From NCBI RefSeq assembly GCF_025463825.1, contig NZ_JAODBG010000064.1, positions 1 through 64,000 of the forward strand: 64,000 bases of DNA, written 5' to 3'. The notes beneath the pieces are model-generated. The model did not search any database and was not told the DNA's origin. It worked only from the letters and a program-made list of their open reading frames with translations. Source of the stretch: Cryobacterium sp. Its GTDB lineage: Bacteria; Actinomycetota; Actinomycetes; Actinomycetales; Microbacteriaceae. Shown here one piece after another: positions 7,452 through 63,187 of this stretch. Both the position numbers and the translations under genes were made by a program. Within the stretch, counting starts at the first letter, position 1. Every line of letters begins with the position of its first letter.

Positions 7452-7469
7452 GCGCCCGGCTCTTCAGAA

Positions 7470-7500
7470 CGGCCCCGTCGGCACCCCGACGGGGCCGTTT
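7470..7500 (+). terminator. rho-independent terminator after aceB
   Basis: This is a perfect 12-bp GC stem, CGGCCCCGTCGG / CCGACGGGGCCG, with a CACC loop followed by TTTGCTT. It closes the aceA-aceB operon 18 bp after the stop and separates it from the acetyltransferase gene. Confidence 0.88.
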
Positions 7501-7533: not shown

Positions 7534-8097
7534 ATGACCGATTCCCCGCCCGCCGGGCCCGTCACCGAGGTGCGGGTGCGCCCCGCACGCCCCGGCGAGG
7601 CCGCCGCGCTCGCCGAGCTGGCAGCCGCCACCTTCGCGCTGGCCTGCCCACCGCACACCAGCGCCGACGCCATCGCCGCGTTCCTGCGCGACGTGCTGGC
7701 CCCGGCCAACTTCGAGGTCTTCCTCGCCGACCCGGAGCGGCTACTCCTGGTGGCCGAGAACGACGCGGTCACGCTCATGGGCTACACGATGCTGGTCTTC
7801 GGTGAGCCGCACGACGCGGATGCCGCCGACGCGATCCGCATCCGCCCCACCGCCGAACTCAGCAAATGTTATGTGCGCGCCGAAGCGCATGGCACCGGCG
7901 CCGCCGGCGCCCTGATGGCCGCCACCCTCGACGCCGCCCGGGAGCGTGGTGCGACCGGCTCCTGGCTCGGGGTGAACCAGGAGAACGATCGGGCGTTGCG
8001 CTTCTACGGCAAGCACGGCTACGAGCGGGTGGGCATCAAGCGCTTCCTCGTGGGCGAGCGCTACGAGGACGACTACGTCCTCGAGCGCGCGCTCTAG
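7534..8097 (+). CDS. GNAT family N-acetyltransferase
   Basis: The 187-residue protein has the acetyl-CoA binding motif A at residues 113-128 (YVRAEAHGTGAAGALM) and motif B at 151-164 (NDRALRFYGKHGYE), both characteristic of GNAT enzymes. The start at 7534 is chosen because it lies after the aceB terminator and gives the normal GNAT N-terminus (VRVRPARPGEAAAL). No good ribosome site precedes it. The substrate cannot be deduced. Its closest resemblance is to the RimI-like or small-molecule acetylating group. It faces the photolyase gene, with a palindromic repeat element between them. Confidence 0.85.
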   Translation: MTDSPPAGPVTEVRVRPARPGEAAALAELAAATFALACPPHTSADAIAAFLRDVLAPANFEVFLADPERLLLVAENDAVTLMGYTMLVFGEPHDADAADAIRIRPTAELSKCYVRAEAHGTGAAGALMAATLDAARERGATGSWLGVNQENDRALRFYGKHGYERVGIKRFLVGERYEDDYVLERAL

Positions 8098-8109: not shown

Positions 8110-8181
8110 CGCAACTGTTGCCGAAGCGGACAAATGGTCCCGGTGTGCCGGACGCAATTGTCCGCACGGGCAACAGTTGCG
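8110..8181. repeat. palindromic intergenic repeat, copy A
   Basis: This 72-bp element folds into one long hairpin. The outer arms CGCAACTGTTGCC / GGCAACAGTTGCG (13 bp, perfect) enclose inner arms GCGGACAA / TTGTCCGC and a central CCCGGTGTGCCGG. A related copy (copy B) occurs near 47.8 kb with the same inner arm and centre. It sits between two convergent genes and probably acts as a bidirectional terminator or a REP-like element. Confidence 0.75.
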
Positions 8182-8184
8182 GGG

Positions 8185-9618
8185 CTAGGCCGGGTCGGGG
8201 CGGGCGGCCTTCACCTGGTCGTAGGCGGCGAGGGCGGCCCGGCGGGTCTCACCAAGGTCCACGATCGGTGCCGGATAGGTGTCGGTGCCCCACTCGGGCA
8301 CGTTCTGGCGCACGTACTCGTTGTTCGGGTCGAACTTGGTTGCCTGCAGCTCCGGGTTGAAGACCCGGAAGTACGGTGCGGCGTCCGCGCCGGAGCCCGC
8401 CACCCACTGCCAATTGAACGGGTTGCTGGCCGGGTCGGCGTCGACGAGGGTGTCCCAGAACCACTGCTCGCCCTGCCGCCAGTCGATCAGCAGGTTCTTG
8501 ATCAGGAATGACGCGGTCACCATGCGGATCCGGTTGTGCATGCTGCCGGTGCGCCAGAGTTCGCGCATGCCGGCGTCCACCAGGCGGAAGCCGGTGCGGC
8601 CCTGCTGCCACGCGGTGAGGGCTTCGGCGTCGAGCGGCGGCCAGGGGAACGCGTCGAAGCCGGCGCGCAGATTGGCGGTGGCCAGATCGGGGGCGTGGAA
8701 CAGCACGTGGTAGGCGAATTCCCGCCAGCCGATCTCGGTGAGGAACCGGGTGGCGCTGGTCGCCGCCGCGCCGGTGAGGCCCCGGCGGGCGACGTCGGTG
8801 GCGTGCCAGATCTGGTGCGGGCTGATCTCCCCCCAACGCAGGTGCGGGGACATCCGCGACGTGGCCTGCTGCGCGGGCAGATCTCGCTCGGTGCCGTACG
8901 GCGGCAGGGCCTCGTCGAGGAAGGTGGCAAGGGACTCGTGGGCGGATGCCTCGCCCGGCGACCACGCTTCGCGGAGGCCGCCGGCCCAGTCCGGGCGGGT
9001 GGGCTCAAGCGCCCAGCCGGTGAGGTCGTCGCTGCCCAGCCCGCGGGCGGCGTCGTCGAGTTCTTCCGGCGCCGGATAGGGCGCCCGCGGCGGCGGCCCG
9101 GCCGTGCACGCCCGCCAGAACGGGGTGAACACCGTGTACGGCGTGCCGCCGCCGGTGCGGATGGTCCACGGCTCGAAGAGCAGGGAGCCAGCGAAACTGT
9201 GGGCCACGATCCCGGCGTCGGTGAGGTTGGCCTTGATGGCGGTGTCCACGTCCCGCTCGGCGGCGCCGTAGCGGCGGTTCCAGAACACCGCGCCCGCACC
9301 GAGCTCCTCGGCCAGCGCGCCGATCAGGGGCTCAGCGGCTCCGCGGCGCAGCACCAGGCGGGCGCCACGGGCGGCGGCATCGGCAGCGAGGGAGGCCAGG
9401 CTCTGGTGCAGCCACCAGTGCGCGGCGCCGCCGAGTGGACGGATGCCGGGAGACACCTCGTCGAGGATGTAGACCAGCGCCACCGGGCGGCCGCGCTCCA
9501 CCGCTGCGGTGAGCGCCGGGTTGTCGCCCAGGCGGAGGTCGTCGCGGAGCCAGACCAGGGAGGGGCCGTCCGGCCGAGCGGGCTGGGGAGTGGCCCCAGT
9601 GGTGGCGGTGGCGGTCAT
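8185..9618 (-). CDS. phrB: deoxyribodipyrimidine photolyase (CPD class I)
   Basis: The 477-residue protein has the N-terminal alpha/beta photolyase domain (SLVWLRDDLRLGDNPAL, with WLRDDLR typical of the family) and a C-terminal FAD-binding helical domain. Diagnostic blocks are RWGEISPHQIW, FLTEIGWREFAYHVL, GMRELWRTGSMHNRIRM and the tail block around DADPASNPFNWQWVAG. Conserved FAD and DNA-lesion residues therefore appear intact. It repairs UV-induced cyclobutane pyrimidine dimers using light. The length is normal. It overlaps the upstream oxidoreductase gene by four bases on the minus strand and is probably co-transcribed with it. UV repair fits a surface- or ice-dwelling pigmented actinobacterium, which is inference. 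Confidence 0.95.
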   Translation of the reverse strand: MTATATTGATPQPARPDGPSLVWLRDDLRLGDNPALTAAVERGRPVALVYILDEVSPGIRPLGGAAHWWLHQSLASLAADAAARGARLVLRRGAAEPLIGALAEELGAGAVFWNRRYGAAERDVDTAIKANLTDAGIVAHSFAGSLLFEPWTIRTGGGTPYTVFTPFWRACTAGPPPRAPYPAPEELDDAARGLGSDDLTGWALEPTRPDWAGGLREAWSPGEASAHESLATFLDEALPPYGTERDLPAQQATSRMSPHLRWGEISPHQIWHATDVARRGLTGAAATSATRFLTEIGWREFAYHVLFHAPDLATANLRAGFDAFPWPPLDAEALTAWQQGRTGFRLVDAGMRELWRTGSMHNRIRMVTASFLIKNLLIDWRQGEQWFWDTLVDADPASNPFNWQWVAGSGADAAPYFRVFNPELQATKFDPNNEYVRQNVPEWGTDTYPAPIVDLGETRRAALAAYDQVKAARPDPA

Positions 9619-14525: not shown

Positions 14526-14559
14526 CGGGATGCCCGCGGCCCCGGCCGCGGGCATCCCG
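14526..14559 (+). terminator. intercistronic hairpin after the binding-protein gene
   Basis: CGGGATGCCCGCGGCC pairs perfectly with GGCCGCGGGCATCCCG around a two-base gap; the innermost pair would open to give a workable loop. There is no T-tract. It lies between the binding-protein gene and the dehydrogenase gene, so it more likely stabilises the upstream mRNA or causes partial attenuation than ends all transcription. Confidence 0.65.
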
Positions 14560-19122: not shown

Positions 19123-19159
19123 GAGGACACCCCGGGCGAAAGTCGCCCGGGGTGTCCTC
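19123..19159. terminator. bidirectional terminator-like hairpin
   Basis: GAGGACACCCCGGGCGA pairs perfectly with TCGCCCGGGGTGTCCTC (17 bp) around a 3-base loop (AAG), followed by CTTGTC. It sits between the sortase-tail remnant and the facing ABC ATPase gene and can serve both. Confidence 0.7.
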
Positions 19160-47101: not shown

Positions 47102-47770
47102 ATGCTCGCTCCCACCTCCCGCCTGGTCGAACTCAGCCACGAGATCAGTGCGGGACTGGTGACCTACCCCGGCCTGCCCGCCCCGGTGATCACCCCGCAC
47201 CTCAGCCGGGCGGAGTCTCGCAGCCACTACGCGGCCGGCACCGAATTCGCGCTGGACACCATCACGATGATCGGCAACACCGGAACCTACCTCGACAGCC
47301 CGTTCCACCGCTACCAGGGCGGCGCCGACCTGGCGGCGTTACCGCTGGAAATCCTCGTGGACCTTCCCGCCCGCCTCTTCCACCAGTCGTTCGAGCGGGG
47401 GATCGGTGCCGAGGCGTTCACCGGCCAGGATCTCGCCGGCACGGCGGTGCTGCTGCACACCGGCTGGGACCGGCATTTCGGCACCTCCGCCTATGTCGCG
47501 GGCGCGCCGTTCCTCACCGAGGCCGGCGCCCAGGTGCTGGTGGCCGCGGGGGTGACGCTGGTGGGCATCGACTCGCTCAACATCGACGACACGGAGTCCG
47601 GCGGTACGCGGCCGGCCCATTCGATCCTGCTGGCCGCCGGCATCCCGGTGGTCGAGCACCTCACCGGGCTGGGCGGGCTTCCCGACCGCGGAGCCTCCTT
47701 CAGCGCGGTGCCGCCGCGCGTGCGCGACTTCGGCACTTTCCCGGTGCGCGCCTACGCCCGGCTGCCCTGA
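47102..47770 (+). CDS. cyclase family protein (kynurenine-formamidase-like fold)
   Basis: This is a 222-residue protein of the metal-dependent cyclase / KynB-like hydrolase family. The fold is recognisable from LVELSHEISAGLVTYPG through GIDSLNIDD. The metal signature, normally HxGTHxDxPxH, reads NTGTYLDSPFH here: two of the His ligands are replaced by Asn and Tyr, while the Asp and last His remain. The enzyme may bind metal differently or be inactive as a formamidase. AGAGAA precedes the ATG. It stands alone, facing the GH42 gene across a palindromic repeat. Role unknown. Confidence 0.8.
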   Translation: MLAPTSRLVELSHEISAGLVTYPGLPAPVITPHLSRAESRSHYAAGTEFALDTITMIGNTGTYLDSPFHRYQGGADLAALPLEILVDLPARLFHQSFERGIGAEAFTGQDLAGTAVLLHTGWDRHFGTSAYVAGAPFLTEAGAQVLVAAGVTLVGIDSLNIDDTESGGTRPAHSILLAAGIPVVEHLTGLGGLPDRGASFSAVPPRVRDFGTFPVRAYARLP

Positions 47771-47794
47771 CGCCCGGCCCGCCGGCCCGGCCCG

Positions 47795-47864
47795 CCAACT
47801 GTCGCCCGTGCGGACAAGTGCACCCGGTGTGCCGGGACCAGTTGTCCGCACGGGATCCAGTTGG
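47795..47864. repeat. palindromic intergenic repeat, copy B
   Basis: The 70-bp hairpin has outer arms CCAACTG / CAGTTGG, inner arms CCCGTGCGGACAA / TTGTCCGCACGGG (13 bp, perfect) and a central CCCGG-TGTG-CCGGG. The inner GCGGACAA / TTGTCCGC and the centre match copy A at 8.1 kb, while the outer arms differ but stay self-complementary. Like copy A it separates two convergent genes. Confidence 0.75.
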
Positions 47865-47869
47865 TCGCG

Positions 47870-49900
47870 TCAGCGGGCGGAGTGCACGACCCGGGTGAGA
47901 CCGGCGGGCACGAGCACGGTGCCGTCGACAGCGGTGTTCGTGAGCAACTCGGTGCCGGTGGCGGACATGGCCTGCTCGGCATCCGTGTGGTTGATCAAGA
48001 AGAGGAAGTCGTCGGTATCGGTGGAGCGGGTGATGGCCTCCACCCCGGTCACGCCGCGGGCCGCGTCGATGCCGGCCGTGTTGAGCACGTCCAGGAGCAG
48101 GGAGTCCAGGTCGTCGCCGTCGAGCTTGGTGGAGACGTACCAGGCCGTGCCGGCGCCGAAGGAATTGCGGGTGATGGCCGGCCCGTTCACTGCGGGGCCG
48201 TCGACGTACCTGGCCAGGACCTCGGCTGTCGACACCTCGATGTCGTCGGTCCAGGCGGTACCGGTGCGGGAGTCGCTGAGGGTGACCGTCTCGGCCTCGT
48301 GCAGGGGTAGGAACTCGGGGATGGTGAGGCCAAGGACCTCACGCAGGGCGCCGGGCGCCGCACCGGGGTAGACGGTATCGTTCAGGTCGACGATGCCGGA
48401 GAAGTAGGAGACCAACAGATGGCCGCCGTCCCGCACGAACCCGGTGAGGTTCTCCGATGCGGCCGGCCCGGCGAGATACAGGCTGGGCGCGATGACCAGC
48501 TCGTACCCGCTGAGCTCACTGGTGGGGTGCACGAAGTCCACCGTCACGTTGCGATTCCAGAGCACCGTGTAAAAGGCCTCGATGCGTTCCCGGTGACCAA
48601 GCTCCGCGCTCGGACGCCACTCGAAGTCCTGCGCCCAGAACGATTCGGTGTCCCAGACCAGCGCCACGCAGGCCGTGACCCGAGAGGAACGCACGGGCGC
48701 AAGTGATCCGAGGGACTGGCCGAGCGCGACGACCTCGCGCCAGATGCGCGTCTCGGCGCCGGCGTGGGGCAGCATCGCCGAGTGGAACTTCTCCACCCCG
48801 AACCGCGAGGCGCGGAACTGGAAGAACAGGATTCCGTCAGCGCCCCTGGCGAGGTGGGAGAGCGAGTTGCGGGCCAGTTCGCCGGGGCGCTTGGCGATGT
48901 TGCGCGGCTGCCAGTTGACCGCACCGGTGGAGTGCTCCATCAGGATCCACGGCGCCCCGCCGGCCAGCGACCGGGTGAGGTCGGCATCCAGTGCCAGGAG
49001 CACGTGGTTGTCGGCGCGTTCGGCCACGAGATAGTGGTCGTTGGCGACGACGTCCACCTCCTGGCTCCAGCGCCAGTAGTCGGCTGAGAGGCAGTTGGTG
49101 GCCATAAAGTTCGTGGTGACGGGGATGTCCGGGGTGAAGCGCCGGATGACGTCGCGCTCGTTGATATAGCACTCCAGCAGCGCGTCGGAGGTGAACCGGT
49201 GGAAATCCAGGCGCTGCGCCTGGTTGGTCACCGAGGCCGACTGGCGGGGCGCGTCGATCTCGTCCCATTCGCCGTAAACCTGGCCCCAGAAGGTCGTGCC
49301 CCACTTCTCGTTGAGGGTGTCGAGGGTGCCATAGCGGTTCTGCAGCCAGACCCGGAACGCGGCGACGGAGTCGTCGTCGTAGGAGTCGCTGATCGGTGCG
49401 CCGTATTCGTTGTGCACGTGCCACAGCACCAGCGCGGGGTGGTTGGCGTACCGGCGGGCGAGTTGCTCGGTGATCGCGGCGGCGGCGCGGCGGTAGTCGG
49501 GGCTCGATGGGCTGACCATGCCGCGGGAGCCGTTGCCCAGGGTGATTCCGTCCCGGGTGACGGGGCGGGAATCCGGGTACTTCTTCCAGAACCAGGCCGG
49601 CGGGGCGGCGGTGGGGGTCGCAAGGTCGACGTCGATGCCGGCCTTGTGCAGCAGGTCGATGATGTCGTCCAGTTGACGGAAGTCGTATTCGCCCTCGCGC
49701 GGTTCCAGGAGGCCCCAGGCGAAGATGGCGACACTGACCAGGTTGATCCCGGCCTGTTTCATCAGCTCGATGTCTTCGACCCAGGTGGCACGCGGCCACT
49801 GTTCGGGGTTGTAGTCGCCGCCGTAGCGGATTCCGGTGGTTCCGTGCAGCAGCCGCTGCATCGCGGGGGAATCGGCGGGAAGTGGGGTCTGGATCGGCAT
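47870..49900 (-). CDS. beta-galactosidase, glycoside hydrolase family 42
   Basis: The 676-residue GH42 enzyme opens with GIRYGGDYNPEQWP, the family start. Catalytic acid Glu165 is in LWHVHNEYGAP and nucleophile Glu322 in ILMEHSTGAVNW; a trimerisation domain (about 390-610) and a short C-terminal beta domain follow. It has no signal peptide and is cytoplasmic, splitting imported beta-galactosides. GGAG precedes the ATG. It is divergent from a binding-protein importer and close to a LacI gene, forming one galactoside-use module. Its promoter lies within an 11-bp inverted repeat. Confidence 0.96.
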   Translation of the reverse strand: MPIQTPLPADSPAMQRLLHGTTGIRYGGDYNPEQWPRATWVEDIELMKQAGINLVSVAIFAWGLLEPREGEYDFRQLDDIIDLLHKAGIDVDLATPTAAPPAWFWKKYPDSRPVTRDGITLGNGSRGMVSPSSPDYRRAAAAITEQLARRYANHPALVLWHVHNEYGAPISDSYDDDSVAAFRVWLQNRYGTLDTLNEKWGTTFWGQVYGEWDEIDAPRQSASVTNQAQRLDFHRFTSDALLECYINERDVIRRFTPDIPVTTNFMATNCLSADYWRWSQEVDVVANDHYLVAERADNHVLLALDADLTRSLAGGAPWILMEHSTGAVNWQPRNIAKRPGELARNSLSHLARGADGILFFQFRASRFGVEKFHSAMLPHAGAETRIWREVVALGQSLGSLAPVRSSRVTACVALVWDTESFWAQDFEWRPSAELGHRERIEAFYTVLWNRNVTVDFVHPTSELSGYELVIAPSLYLAGPAASENLTGFVRDGGHLLVSYFSGIVDLNDTVYPGAAPGALREVLGLTIPEFLPLHEAETVTLSDSRTGTAWTDDIEVSTAEVLARYVDGPAVNGPAITRNSFGAGTAWYVSTKLDGDDLDSLLLDVLNTAGIDAARGVTGVEAITRSTDTDDFLFLINHTDAEQAMSATGTELLTNTAVDGTVLVPAGLTRVVHSAR

Positions 49901-51404: not shown

Positions 51405-51432
51405 GGGGCGTCGGCCTGCTGGCCGACGCCCC
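51405..51432 (+). terminator. intercistronic hairpin after the binding-protein gene
   Basis: GGGGCGTCGGCC pairs perfectly with GGCCGACGCCCC around TGCT, 8 bp after the stop. No T-tract; likely attenuates or stabilises rather than fully terminates, since the permease genes follow on the same strand. Confidence 0.7.
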
Positions 51433-57844: not shown

Positions 57845-57881
57845 GACCGGCCGGCGGGGCATCGCGTCCCGCCGGCCGGTC
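57845..57881 (+). terminator. intercistronic hairpin after the ChvE-type gene
   Basis: GACCGGCCGGCGGG pairs perfectly with CCCGCCGGCCGGTC around a 9-base loop, between the binding-protein and ATPase genes. No T-tract. It probably lowers ATPase/permease expression relative to the binding protein. Confidence 0.7.
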
Positions 57882-60734: not shown

Positions 60735-60780
60735 GGCCGCTGGCCCCGCATCCTCCCGGATGCGGGGCCAGCGGCCTTTT
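60735..60780 (+). terminator. strong rho-independent terminator after mmsB
   Basis: GGCCGCTGGCCCCGCATCC pairs perfectly over 19 bp with its complement at 60758-60776 around TCCC, followed by TTTT. It is the strongest terminator in the window and ends the pentose-transport operon. Confidence 0.92.
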
Positions 60781-60811
60781 GCGCGCCCCGCCCGCCGCCC
60801 CCGCCCCCGCC

Positions 60812-60906
60812 GCGTGCGCAAATGCTCGCGGCGTGCGAAAGTGCTCGCAGCGTGCGAAATGTGGCGCATTAACGCTTGCCGCGAGCATTAACGCGTGCGG
60901 CGAGCA
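60812..60906. repeat. array of five contiguous 19-bp units with internal inversion
   Basis: Units 1-3 (60812-60868) read GCGTGCGCAAATGCTCGCG, GCGTGCGAAAGTGCTCGCA and GCGTGCGAAATGTGGCGCA. Units 4-5 (60869-60906) read TTAACGCTTGCCGCGAGCA and TTAACGCGTGCGGCGAGCA, which on the other strand contain the same TGCTCGC and GCG(T/A)(G/A)CG elements. The array therefore forms a large palindrome (AAATGCTCGC at the left, GCGAGCATTT at the right). It follows the mmsB terminator and lies 130 bp before the AbiEi-like gene. The flanks (60781-60811 and 60907-61038) show only GC-rich DNA. Confidence 0.75.
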
Positions 60907-61038: not shown

Positions 61039-62025
61039 ATGGTCATCTCCCAGTCCCCGTTTTCAGCCCACGAGGTTCTCCGTCTCGCCGAAGTGGCGGC
61101 TCTCCTGTACGACGGACTGCTACCTTCCGAGGCCCTGCGGGAGGCGGGCGTGCCGCCGCACAGCTTCCGGCGCCTCTGCCTCGAGGGGGTGCTGCACTGC
61201 ATCCGTCACGGTGTGTATGTCACGGGGGAGCGCTGGCGGGCAGCGGGTGCCAGCGAGCGGTATCGGCTGCTGGTCCGGGCGACCGCGTTGGCGGCGAACC
61301 GCCAGCCCGTGCTCTCGCACCACTCCGCGGCCGTGCTGCACGGTCTTCCGATCATCGGCGGGTGGCCCGCAACGGTGCACACCGTTACTCCCGGCGCCAG
61401 CGGAGGCAGCCGGAACCGATCCACGACTGGGCATCGGGGACCCGCGCCGGAGCTTGTGGAGACCATTGACGGGTGCCGGGTGACGTCACTGGCGCGCACT
61501 TTGGTGGACGTGGCGGCATCATCTTCGTTGCTGGTGGGCGTGACGATGCTTGACCATGCCCTGCGCGTCGGGGGAGACCCCGTGCTGACCAAGGATGCGC
61601 TGTATCAGGAGCTCGCCCTGGTGAACCCGCGGACGGGGCGGCGCCAAGCCGAGCAGGCGATCGCCTTCGCGAACCCGCTGTCGGCCAACCCGGGCGAGAC
61701 TCTCAGCAGGGTGCGCATCTTTCAGCTCGGCTTCGAGGTGCCGGAGTTGCAGGTGTGCTTTCCCGGAATCCTCGGCGGTAATGCCTACGTGGATTTCTGG
61801 TGGCGGCAGGTGCGCAAGATCGGCGAATTCGACGGCTTTCTCAAGTACGGGATGGGACCGGTGCTGGGGGACCGTGACCCCGGTTCGGTGGTGTGGCAGG
61901 AGAAGCAACGTGAGGACGCGTTGCGGGCCCGGGTGAACAGCTTCGACCGGTGGGGCTGGGACCTGGCGCTGACGCCCGAACGGTTCTCCGCATTTCTGAC
62001 GGAACGAGGTGTGCCGCGCGCCTGA
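61039..62025 (+). CDS. AbiEi-like antitoxin-domain protein with a PD-(D/E)XK-type C-terminus
   Basis: The 328-residue protein has an N-terminal winged-helix AbiEi-like antitoxin domain (about 22-63: SEALREAGVPPHSFRRLCLEGVLHCIRHGVYV) and a long middle region. Its C-terminus looks like a very-short-patch-repair/DUF559-type nuclease core: Glu220 (NPGETLSR), Asp252 (AYVDFWW), Glu263-x-Asp265 (IGEFDG) and Lys269. The ATG at 61039 is preferred (GAGAG upstream). No AbiEii-type nucleotidyltransferase toxin gene is adjacent, so it is not a classical type IV toxin-antitoxin pair. Such proteins are common as orphans in actinobacteria and their function is unknown; the nuclease reading is inference from spacing of acidic residues. 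Confidence 0.7.
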   Translation: MVISQSPFSAHEVLRLAEVAALLYDGLLPSEALREAGVPPHSFRRLCLEGVLHCIRHGVYVTGERWRAAGASERYRLLVRATALAANRQPVLSHHSAAVLHGLPIIGGWPATVHTVTPGASGGSRNRSTTGHRGPAPELVETIDGCRVTSLARTLVDVAASSSLLVGVTMLDHALRVGGDPVLTKDALYQELALVNPRTGRRQAEQAIAFANPLSANPGETLSRVRIFQLGFEVPELQVCFPGILGGNAYVDFWWRQVRKIGEFDGFLKYGMGPVLGDRDPGSVVWQEKQREDALRARVNSFDRWGWDLALTPERFSAFLTERGVPRA

Positions 62026-62118: not shown

Positions 62119-62203
62119 TTCCTGAAGATCTGAAAGGCCCGTTCCCGGCACCAAGATCGCAGCATTTTCCTCGCCGGGAAACTAAACAAGGAGGTTTGGT
62201 TAC

Positions 62204-63187
62204 ATGAAGAAAATCATTGGAATGGCGGCTGCCGGAGCGATGCTCCTGGCGCTGGCCGGGTGCTCGGGCGGCGGCGGTTCGACGTCGGGCGAGGGCGAGG
62301 CCCCTGCAACCGAAGACCTCATCGTCGGCTTCTCCCAGGTGGGCGCCGAGAGCGGTTGGCGCGCAGCGAACACCAAGGATATCCAGGCGGCCTTCGAGGA
62401 GGCCGGCATCGAACTGAAGTTCTCGGATGCCCAGCAGAAGCAGGAGAACCAGATCAAGGCCATCCGCTCCTACATCCAGCAGGGGGTGGACGTCATCGCG
62501 TTCTCTCCGGTGGTGGAATCCGGCTGGGACACCGTGCTCAAGGAGGCCAAGGACGCCGACATCCCCGTCGTGCTGACCGACCGGTCGGTCGATTCCGCCG
62601 ACACCTCGCTCTACGTGTCCTTCCTCGGCTCGGACTTCGTCGAAGAAGGCAAGAAGGCCGGTGAATGGGTGACCGAGGAGTTCGCGGATGCGGACGCTGT
62701 CAAGATCATCCAGCTCGAGGGCACCACCGGTTCCGCTCCGGCCATCGACCGCGCGGAGGGCTTCGCCGACGTGATCGGCAGCGACCCGAAGTTCGAGGTC
62801 GTGGCCAGCCAGACCGGCGACTTCACCCGCTCCGGCGGTAAGCAGGTCACCGAGGCGCTGCTGAAGTCCAACCCTGACGTCGACCTGATCTACGCACACA
62901 ACGACGACATGGGGCTTGGCGCGATCGAGGCCATCGAAGCGGCCGGCCTGACGCCGGGCGTGGACATCAAGATCGTGACCGTTGACGCGGTCAAGGACGG
63001 CATGCAGGCCCTGGCCGACGGCAAGATCAACTTCATCGTGGAGTGCTCGCCGTTGCTCGGCAAGCAGCTCGTCGAGATCGTGGAGAAGGTCGTCGCCGGC
63101 GAGGAGGTCGAACCGCGTATCGTCACCGAGGAGACCACCTTCACCCAGGAGCAGGCCATCGAGGCCCTGCCCGACCGCCAGTACTAG
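62204..63187 (+). CDS. ytfQ: galactofuranose-type sugar ABC transporter substrate-binding lipoprotein
   Basis: The 327-residue type I periplasmic-binding protein is of the YtfQ family. Signal peptide MKKIIGMAAAGAMLL ends in lipobox LALAGC (Cys20). The mature opening IVGFSQVGAESGWRAANTKDIQAAF and DADIPVVLTDRSVDSADTSLYVSFLGSDFVEEG are typical of galactofuranose/furanose-sugar binders. AAGGAGG precedes the ATG. It is controlled by tandem LacI-type operators and followed, after a hairpin, by its ATPase gene. Substrate assignment (galactofuranose or another furanose) is by family only. Confidence 0.9.
   Translation: MKKIIGMAAAGAMLLALAGCSGGGGSTSGEGEAPATEDLIVGFSQVGAESGWRAANTKDIQAAFEEAGIELKFSDAQQKQENQIKAIRSYIQQGVDVIAFSPVVESGWDTVLKEAKDADIPVVLTDRSVDSADTSLYVSFLGSDFVEEGKKAGEWVTEEFADADAVKIIQLEGTTGSAPAIDRAEGFADVIGSDPKFEVVASQTGDFTRSGGKQVTEALLKSNPDVDLIYAHNDDMGLGAIEAIEAAGLTPGVDIKIVTVDAVKDGMQALADGKINFIVECSPLLGKQLVEIVEKVVAGEEVEPRIVTEETTFTQEQAIEALPDRQY

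Follow-up and report, generated by a model that had tools for sequence, protein, structure and literature searches.

Palindromic repeats at gene ends in Cryobacterium and a candidate AbiEi-like partner protein

Introduction

What are the two 72-bp palindromes that lie in the gaps between facing genes in this stretch of a Cryobacterium genome, and how did they come to be there? Palindromes of this kind are widespread at bacterial gene ends. In the accounts we draw on here, the partner described for them is the RAYT transposase (PMC2817692, PMC3733652). An initial annotation of the 64-kb stretch examined in this study (the window) described the two elements as a REP-like mobile palindrome or a specialised bidirectional terminator. 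We asked how many copies the genome carries, what is conserved among them, and which protein, if any, accompanies them.

Palindromes A and B in the window

Element A is a palindrome at positions 8110-8181 that carries four 11-bp sites (8112-8122, 8131-8141, 8150-8160 and 8169-8179) and, as for B, is assigned no strand. It is located in an 87-bp gap between a GNAT acetyltransferase gene on the plus strand (7534-8097; longest open reading frame from 7366), whose stop lies 12 bp before A, and a DNA photolyase gene on the minus strand (8185-9618) that ends 3 bp after it. Element B (47794-47865; sites at 47796-47806, 47815-47825, 47834-47844 and 47853-47863) is located in a 99-bp gap between a putative cyclase gene on the plus strand (47102-47770), which ends 23 bp before B, and a beta-galactosidase (GH42) gene on the minus strand (47870-49900), which ends 4 bp after it. 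Both elements were where the initial annotation had placed them, with B better delimited by the coordinates given here than by 47795-47864.

The core pattern shared by A and B occurs twice in the window, compared to an expectation of 0 from 100 shuffles. The proposed hairpins of approximately 70 bases are likewise borne out, with computed energies of −54.4 kcal/mol for A (z = −7.29) and −55.5 kcal/mol for B (z = −6.96), and the outer arms indeed differ between the two copies and are self-complementary in each. Membership in an Rfam family was rejected, as evident by the fact that the window yields 0 matches at the gathering score. Integron attC sites, Xer/dif sites and DNA-uptake sequences were also considered as candidate readings and not retained.

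Six other GC hairpins, each present as a single copy, are found soon after genes in the window (7468-7499, 14526-14559, 19123-19159, 51405-51432, 57845-57881 and 60735-60776). These are probable terminators, and the last of them is followed by TTTT.

Most copies of the family lie just past stop codons

The exact core of the family to which A and B belong, F1, is present at 19 places in this genome, and a 40-bp core allowed up to three mismatches is present at 77, with controls of 0 in both instances. Searching with a covariance model of these 19 exact-core copies led to at least 84 distinct 72-mers in the fetched stretches of this genome (G000). This count is a lower bound because the scan, made in fixed 72-base windows, merged identical 72-mers and drew on an incomplete set of matches. 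Gapped model matches also span 72 bases, save those at locus L170 (71 bases), and the alignment takes in 83 of the 84 copies.

Placement was judged with a purpose-written gene caller trained on the window. By these calls, 32 of the 84 copies are located between convergent genes, 40 between tandem genes, three between divergent genes and two within a called gene, and seven are unclassified due to their proximity to a contig or locus end. For the 75 classified intergenic copies, the intergenic lengths of the window would predict approximately 6 convergent, 43 tandem and 26 divergent locations. The median distance from an element to a gene 3′ end is 13.5 bp, and 93 of 104 such distances fall between −8 and 30 bp. 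Of the 40 tandem copies, 38 are nearer to the stop codon of the gene before them than to the start of the gene after them. A distance of −5 recurs seven times among the 104, and the stop codon in these cases is therefore formed by element columns 3-5. The adjoining genes on two copy-rich contigs are ordinary (10 proteins). The genome thus holds a large family whose members are mostly just 3′ of genes, and neither of the outcomes that would have spoken against the initial annotation, two copies only or random placement, was observed.

Model matches to F1 are found in 32 of 57 Cryobacterium genomes, at 1 to at least approximately 87 per genome, although these numbers often count both strands of one place. 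A 22-bp part of F1 is shared by 47 named stretches, all of which come from Cryobacterium.

Sequence constraint and a four-site plan

It had also been proposed that base pairing, and not sequence, is what selection maintains in these elements. Within F1, this claim fails. For 19 copies, 92.6% of cells are paired, which equals the mean of 92.6% obtained after shuffling, and for 84 copies 3 of 36 symmetric column pairs (10/63, 21/52 and 25/48) exceed shuffling at p ≤ 0.01. Positions C12, C18, G20, C22, T26, G27, C31 and G34 are invariant together with their mirrors, with the exception that A is found opposite T26 in only 82 of 84 copies. Covariation of pairing among the 19 copies does not go beyond chance, and selection on pairing alone is not supported for F1, in which shuffled copies pair equally well and many positions do not vary. 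It is the sequence itself that is constrained, which is to be expected of a site recognized by a protein.

Each element follows a plan with a 19-bp pitch, in which two copies of an 11-bp site separated by 8 bp are followed, after another 8 bp, by the mirror image of this arrangement. Four sites are therefore present, with two on each arm. When the model matches sequences in other genera, the 72-bp frame CGGAC-N8-CCGG-TGYG-CCGG-N8-GTCCG is kept and the arms are changed.

Identity at a lag of 19 bp is 0.58 for G000 (84 copies), 0.59 for g78 (20 copies), 0.68 for g32 (seven copies), 0.63 for both g17 (two copies) and g29/G013 (four copies), and 0.70 for two congeners (three copies). Values are lower for M2 (0.54, 16 copies), for g3 (0.50, one copy) and for g58 (only 0.37, three copies). 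Among sets with at least two copies, five of seven fall between 0.58 and 0.70, the others being M2 and g58. M2 is a second family, dispersed in 15 of 57 Cryobacterium genomes at up to 47 places (control 0), and 16 of its copies are placed as eight tandem, two convergent, three divergent, two in a called gene and one unclassified.

The 11-bp site differs by lineage, reading CAACTGTTGCC in Cryobacterium F1, CAGTAGTGCCC in g78 and CATCGCGCCCC in g32. At site positions, arms pair at 0.69-0.88 within their own family versus 0.32-0.64 with other families, and the two Cryobacterium F1 sets pair with each other at 0.75-0.76. Own-family and other-family pairing differ less clearly at spacer positions. 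The arms change together between families, and it is only at this level that the proposal of pairing over sequence stands.

Elements bracket a partner gene

In the g78 genomes, two elements located 1.1 kb apart enclose a gene of approximately 300 codons. Homologs of this gene in G000 (contig C25) and in G017 are both enclosed by elements as well, and their surroundings are unrelated. The gene in the present genome (G000:C25:10247-11158) lies between two copies of this element.

Close homologs (at least 49% identity) are carried by 20 of the 57 Cryobacterium genomes, and one is listed per genome except for G010. Elements flank 16 of these 20 genes on both sides and four on one side (L294, L295, L299 and L304). 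Wherever an upstream element is found, 139-198 bp separate its end from the matched reading frame, whereas the downstream element begins −2 to 122 bp after this frame. For 18 of these 20 genes the downstream neighborhood is a single shared locus, and therefore few independent events are represented. The proteins of G030 and G052, which are approximately 49% identical to the query, are encoded elsewhere in the genome, and their elements carry a different site, CGAGAGTGACC.

Many of the more distant paralogs have palindromes of their own on both sides, although L314, L329 and some others do not. Both flanks scored positive for 30 of 51 family genes versus 5 of 141 control genes, in a test that misses elements overlapping a stop codon and for which two of the five control positives are the partner gene itself, some controls having come from loci chosen for holding elements. 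When upstream flanks were matched to downstream flanks, the own flank ranked first of 51 for 15 of 26 paralog representatives and among the top three for 21 of 26. The five genus representatives without a high rank are L310, L314, L329, L332 and L335, and the cut loci L301, L317 and L326 were left out of both tests. Palindromes chosen by pairing only (36 from 54 genus paralog flanks) exhibit an identity of 0.66 at lag 19 and no more than 0.36 at other lags. The corresponding values for 38 palindromes from 58 phylum flanks are 0.43 and no more than 0.32, indicating that the 19-bp plan is less pronounced in lineages remote from Cryobacterium.

A paralog of the partner gene is also present in the window (61039-62025, plus strand). 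Its product has an AbiEi-like N-terminal half and a putative PD-(D/E)XK C-terminal part. Five 19-bp units, of which three are direct and two mirrored, form an array (60812-60906, no strand) that is located 132 bp upstream of this gene and includes a diverged four-site palindrome (60829-60900). A combined palindrome and lag-19 scan of the 64 kb is matched by A, B, the palindrome at 60829 and an overlapping one at 60785; the flank comparison found no matched downstream element for this paralog. Beyond the gene, TGTGAGCGCTAAC is directly repeated at 62157-62184, ahead of a sugar-binding protein gene (62204-63187), and is perhaps a LacI-type operator.

Genes beside the partner at three loci encode transporters, 6PGD, a DUF1206 protein, a HAD hydrolase and a sugar-binding protein, and at these three loci no toxin gene (AbiEii) is next to it. 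Several similar palindromes are clustered around the paralog at L317 (G000:C136), and a search of 525 kb of the genome's own sequence revealed one such stretch elsewhere (L015, 2575-2637). The paralog at L319 (G010:C21) has one in-frame stop in the matched region, yet it is flanked by M2-type palindromes; G010 has 37 M2 places.

An AbiEi-like protein with a putative nuclease domain

The N-terminal half of the partner protein matches the PADLOC model for AbiEi, with E values of 1.8e-15, 5.8e-18 and 6.4e-13 for three members and 2.5e-13 for the window paralog; the protein of L375 gives no match. Pfam matches in the genus are all below the cut-off (AbiEi_1 in four of 31 proteins, AbiEi_4 in one, and DUF559 in one, at E = 0.032), and one of 10 phylum homologs passes the AbiEi_1 cut-off. 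Searches with the partner protein yielded no NCBIfam match, no known transposase domain and no solved structure that matches by sequence, and a single-sequence AlphaFold model had a mean pLDDT of 34.8 and was unusable.

An alignment of 31 of the homologs found reveals that E220, D252, E263, D265, K269, K289, R291 and E292 (window numbering) are invariant in the C-terminal part. These residues resemble those of a PD-(D/E)XK-type enzyme, and we read this part as a putative nuclease. The putative fold, in a possibly selfish setting, would be shared with Vsr-like homing endonucleases and DUF559 proteins, but the DUF559 match in the genus is sub-threshold only. Homologs currently carry the names ‘AbiEi family antitoxin domain-containing’, ‘DUF559 domain-containing’ or ‘hypothetical’, and one related protein in PLSDB is named DUF559 in its record.

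Partner and element diverge together

A homolog of the partner at E ≤ 1e-15 is present in 33 of 396 genomes drawn from Actinomycetota. For 29 of the phylum loci, whose proteins exhibit 28-41% identity, the flanks were compared as described above. The own-flank match ranked first of 57 at 20 loci, although at L363 by one point only. Match scores of at least 24 were obtained at 19 of the 29 loci, versus 0 of 29 and 1 of 29 for outward-shifted controls, and 46 window genes tested as another control never scored more than 21. The match is absent or weak at 10 of the 29 loci. At some distant loci, such as L370 and L362, the flanking palindromes are almost identical.

Eight PLSDB records carry a homolog. 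Matched flanking repeats are present at all six loci examined (four from Tsukamurella tyrosinosolvens, and one each from Collinsella aerofaciens and Arthrobacter sp. ERGS1:01), with scores of 26-83 and a highest cross score of 23. The filed plasmids of T. tyrosinosolvens NCTC13231 (L380, L381, L384 and L385) carry genes such as tatB, rpmG and pdxS, and look like pieces of a chromosome.

Protein similarity and element similarity are correlated across 26 loci (Mantel r = 0.77, 0 of 5000 permutations as high), for elements that were chosen partly by lag 19, and r is 0.61 among pairs with less than 62% protein identity. Diverged paralogs, in other words, have diverged but matched element pairs. 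F1 is present in 18 of 18 genomes with an F1-type partner and in 14 of the 39 that lack one (Fisher p = 1.6e-6 in a test that ignores phylogeny), and M2 is present in three of three genomes with an M2-type partner versus 12 of 54 without, again ignoring phylogeny. The repeats therefore also occur without the partner.

Reach and turnover of F1

The exact frame pattern is found in one of 396 genomes drawn from the order, a draw that included two other Cryobacterium and approximately 30 other Microbacteriaceae, and this one genome is that of the window. With up to two mismatches, the pattern matches 46 of 398 genomes of the family versus three for a backward control pattern, such that genomes with a single match may reflect chance. 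The covariance model at E ≤ 1e-6 recovers 31 of the 398 genomes, representing 17 of 85 genera.

Carriage by viruses was rejected. The one F1 match in viral sequence falls within the coding frame of a contig and was judged to be due to chance, and neither the frame pattern nor a confirmed relative of the partner protein was found in viral sequence. Searches of phage and plasmid DNA for the element gave short, weak matches only, and phage records yielded no match to the partner protein.

Of 29 orthologous places compared, 26 retain F1, which gives no sign of movement at present. Mean identity is 0.82 for orthologous copies versus 0.77 for non-orthologous copies, a comparison that is biased because most loci were fetched for holding the element, and some of the named loci are from genomes already in the G series. 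F1 looks to be old and mostly inherited in place, with much internal change. Near-identical elements located 124-205 bp apart (L284 at 7545/7669, L274 at 1197/1334, and L273 at 6652/6857) suggest recent local doubling.

A proposed repeat-plus-partner system and its alternatives

We consider it most probable (approximately 0.6) that A and B are dispersed members of a repeat-plus-partner system that resembles REP/RAYT in its plan and whose protein is not homologous to RAYT. The N-terminal AbiEi-like domain would bind the four 11-bp sites. This is the most economical guess given that AbiEi, as described in PMC3985639, uses 11-bp inverted sites. The nuclease-like C-terminal part might then nick or cut the palindrome, which could be extruded as a hairpin at that point, and new copies might arise elsewhere through repair or strand transfer. 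Insertions would survive mainly just past stop codons, either because they are harmless there or because the hairpin serves both facing genes. DNA binding, cutting, spreading and termination are thus activities that we infer for the system.

Organization, placement, bracketing and co-divergence all fit the REP/RAYT plan as it is outlined in PMC2817692 and PMC3733652. As described for REPtrons in these papers and in PMC8266576, dispersed palindromes are mostly downstream of genes, a partner gene is located between two repeats, partner and repeat diverge together, and repeats can exist without the partner. The REP-like organization proposed by the initial annotation holds, with dispersed copies at gene 3′ ends and a bracketed partner gene, but the RAYT transposase was not found in any of 57 genomes of the genus. 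The partner is AbiEi-like and not a Y1/HUH tyrosine transposase, and the elements are symmetric over 72 bp with four 11-bp sites and have no one-sided tag, although the site of g78 and g17 does include GTAG and CGTC in each arm. Because two defining features of REP/RAYT are missing, we do not file the family under that name.

Some likeness to other known arrangements is apparent. REPINs are composite inverted arrangements of repeat units, as are the present elements. In TIRtrons, according to PMC3733652, the repeats on either side of a transposase gene also exist as dispersed families, and the bracketing observed here is similar. In contrast to both, the present elements combine direct and mirrored sites within a single palindrome, and no tyrosine transposase was found. 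The partner protein and the DNA plan differ from every kind of system that we could name. Among the open-licence PMC papers searched, no title or abstract opening connects flanking or dispersed palindromes with AbiEi or DUF559 proteins.

A broader version of this reading, which we hold only tentatively and at somewhat less than even odds, is that AbiEi-like nucleases form a phylum-wide class, each copying and maintaining its own multi-site palindrome around the chromosome. Such a class would parallel REP/RAYT without being related to it, and would comprise many independent lineages that have amplified in repeated bursts, as perhaps represented by F1 and M2 in Cryobacterium. Position, copy number and co-divergence link palindromic repeats to a second protein family, which is unrelated to RAYT and has homologs across Actinomycetota. 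This gives a tentative role to proteins that now bear the names listed above. For each such protein the bracketing pair is a predicted binding site, and both the origin of gene-end repeats and the reason for their location become testable.

An unlikely alternative is that the protein is only a DNA-binding (auto)regulator, for which the upstream element is the operator, the downstream element is a terminator, and the dispersed copies act at gene ends as roadblocks or as additional binding sites, with nothing mobile at present. The AbiEi protein of the type IV toxin-antitoxin system AbiE represses its own promoter, according to PMC3985639, through two 11-bp inverted repeats whose starts are 38 bp apart (11 + N27), a spacing of 2 × 19 that may be a coincidence. 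The recurrent position of the upstream element ahead of the partner gene and the retention of elements at orthologous places would also suit a regulator. However, the dispersed copies are 3′ of genes rather than at promoters (divergent for 3 of 75), the two flanking elements match even though a terminator would not need the sequence of an operator, and the putative catalytic residues are conserved. Moreover, unlike AbiE, the present system has an additional C-terminal part, has no toxin gene beside the partner at the three loci checked, and has sites on both sides of the gene and throughout the genome.

Could the elements simply be bidirectional terminators that end the transcription of facing genes, with the partner gene being incidental? 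Strong hairpins, tight placement after stop codons, and the existence of other palindromes at the photolyase place in other genomes are all in keeping with this idea, and a role in termination is possible from placement. However, 0 of 84 copies have a run of TTTT less than 16 nt away in either direction, the sequence is constrained beyond pairing, and the 19-bp plan, the bracketing and the co-divergence would be left unexplained. This reading is very improbable. It is similarly improbable that the elements are the ends of an ordinary insertion sequence, wherein element, gene and element form a transposon and solo copies are MITEs or remnants. The matched, in some cases almost identical, palindromes around one gene and the dispersed solo copies would be expected of such a transposon, but close homologs are at one conserved place in 18 genomes and are listed once per genome except for G010, which differs from multi-copy insertion sequences, and the protein has no recognizable transposase domain. 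Classic REPs moved by a RAYT (Y1, HUH) transposase are scarcely credible despite the REP-like placement and dispersal, because PF01797, the model used in the search for such a transposase that had been proposed, matches 0 of 57 genomes of the genus and 5 of 14 control genomes, which rejects RAYT as the mobilizer in the genus unless the transposase escapes the Pfam model, and because REPs are 20-40 bp in length with a one-sided GTAG or CGTC tag in the descriptions of PMC2817692, PMC3733652 and PMC8266576.

Other palindromes at places of F1 copies

Among 30 photolyase loci of the genus, the place of A holds F1 in three (G000, G032 and G044), and the others have different palindromes in several instances and abutting genes in further instances. 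Three palindromes that are unrelated to F1 are found 3′ of the photolyase gene, at or near the place filled by A in this genome: F2 (L184, L185 and L188-L191), F3 (L193, L199, L209 and L210) and F4 (L200). F2 includes a GC stem with runs of T that resembles a classic terminator, and L186 retains just part of it. At L090, which is orthologous to the place of copy c14, F1 is missing and the gap instead holds GGTCGAGCTTGTCGAGACC, a short palindrome that we take to be frequent in actinobacteria.
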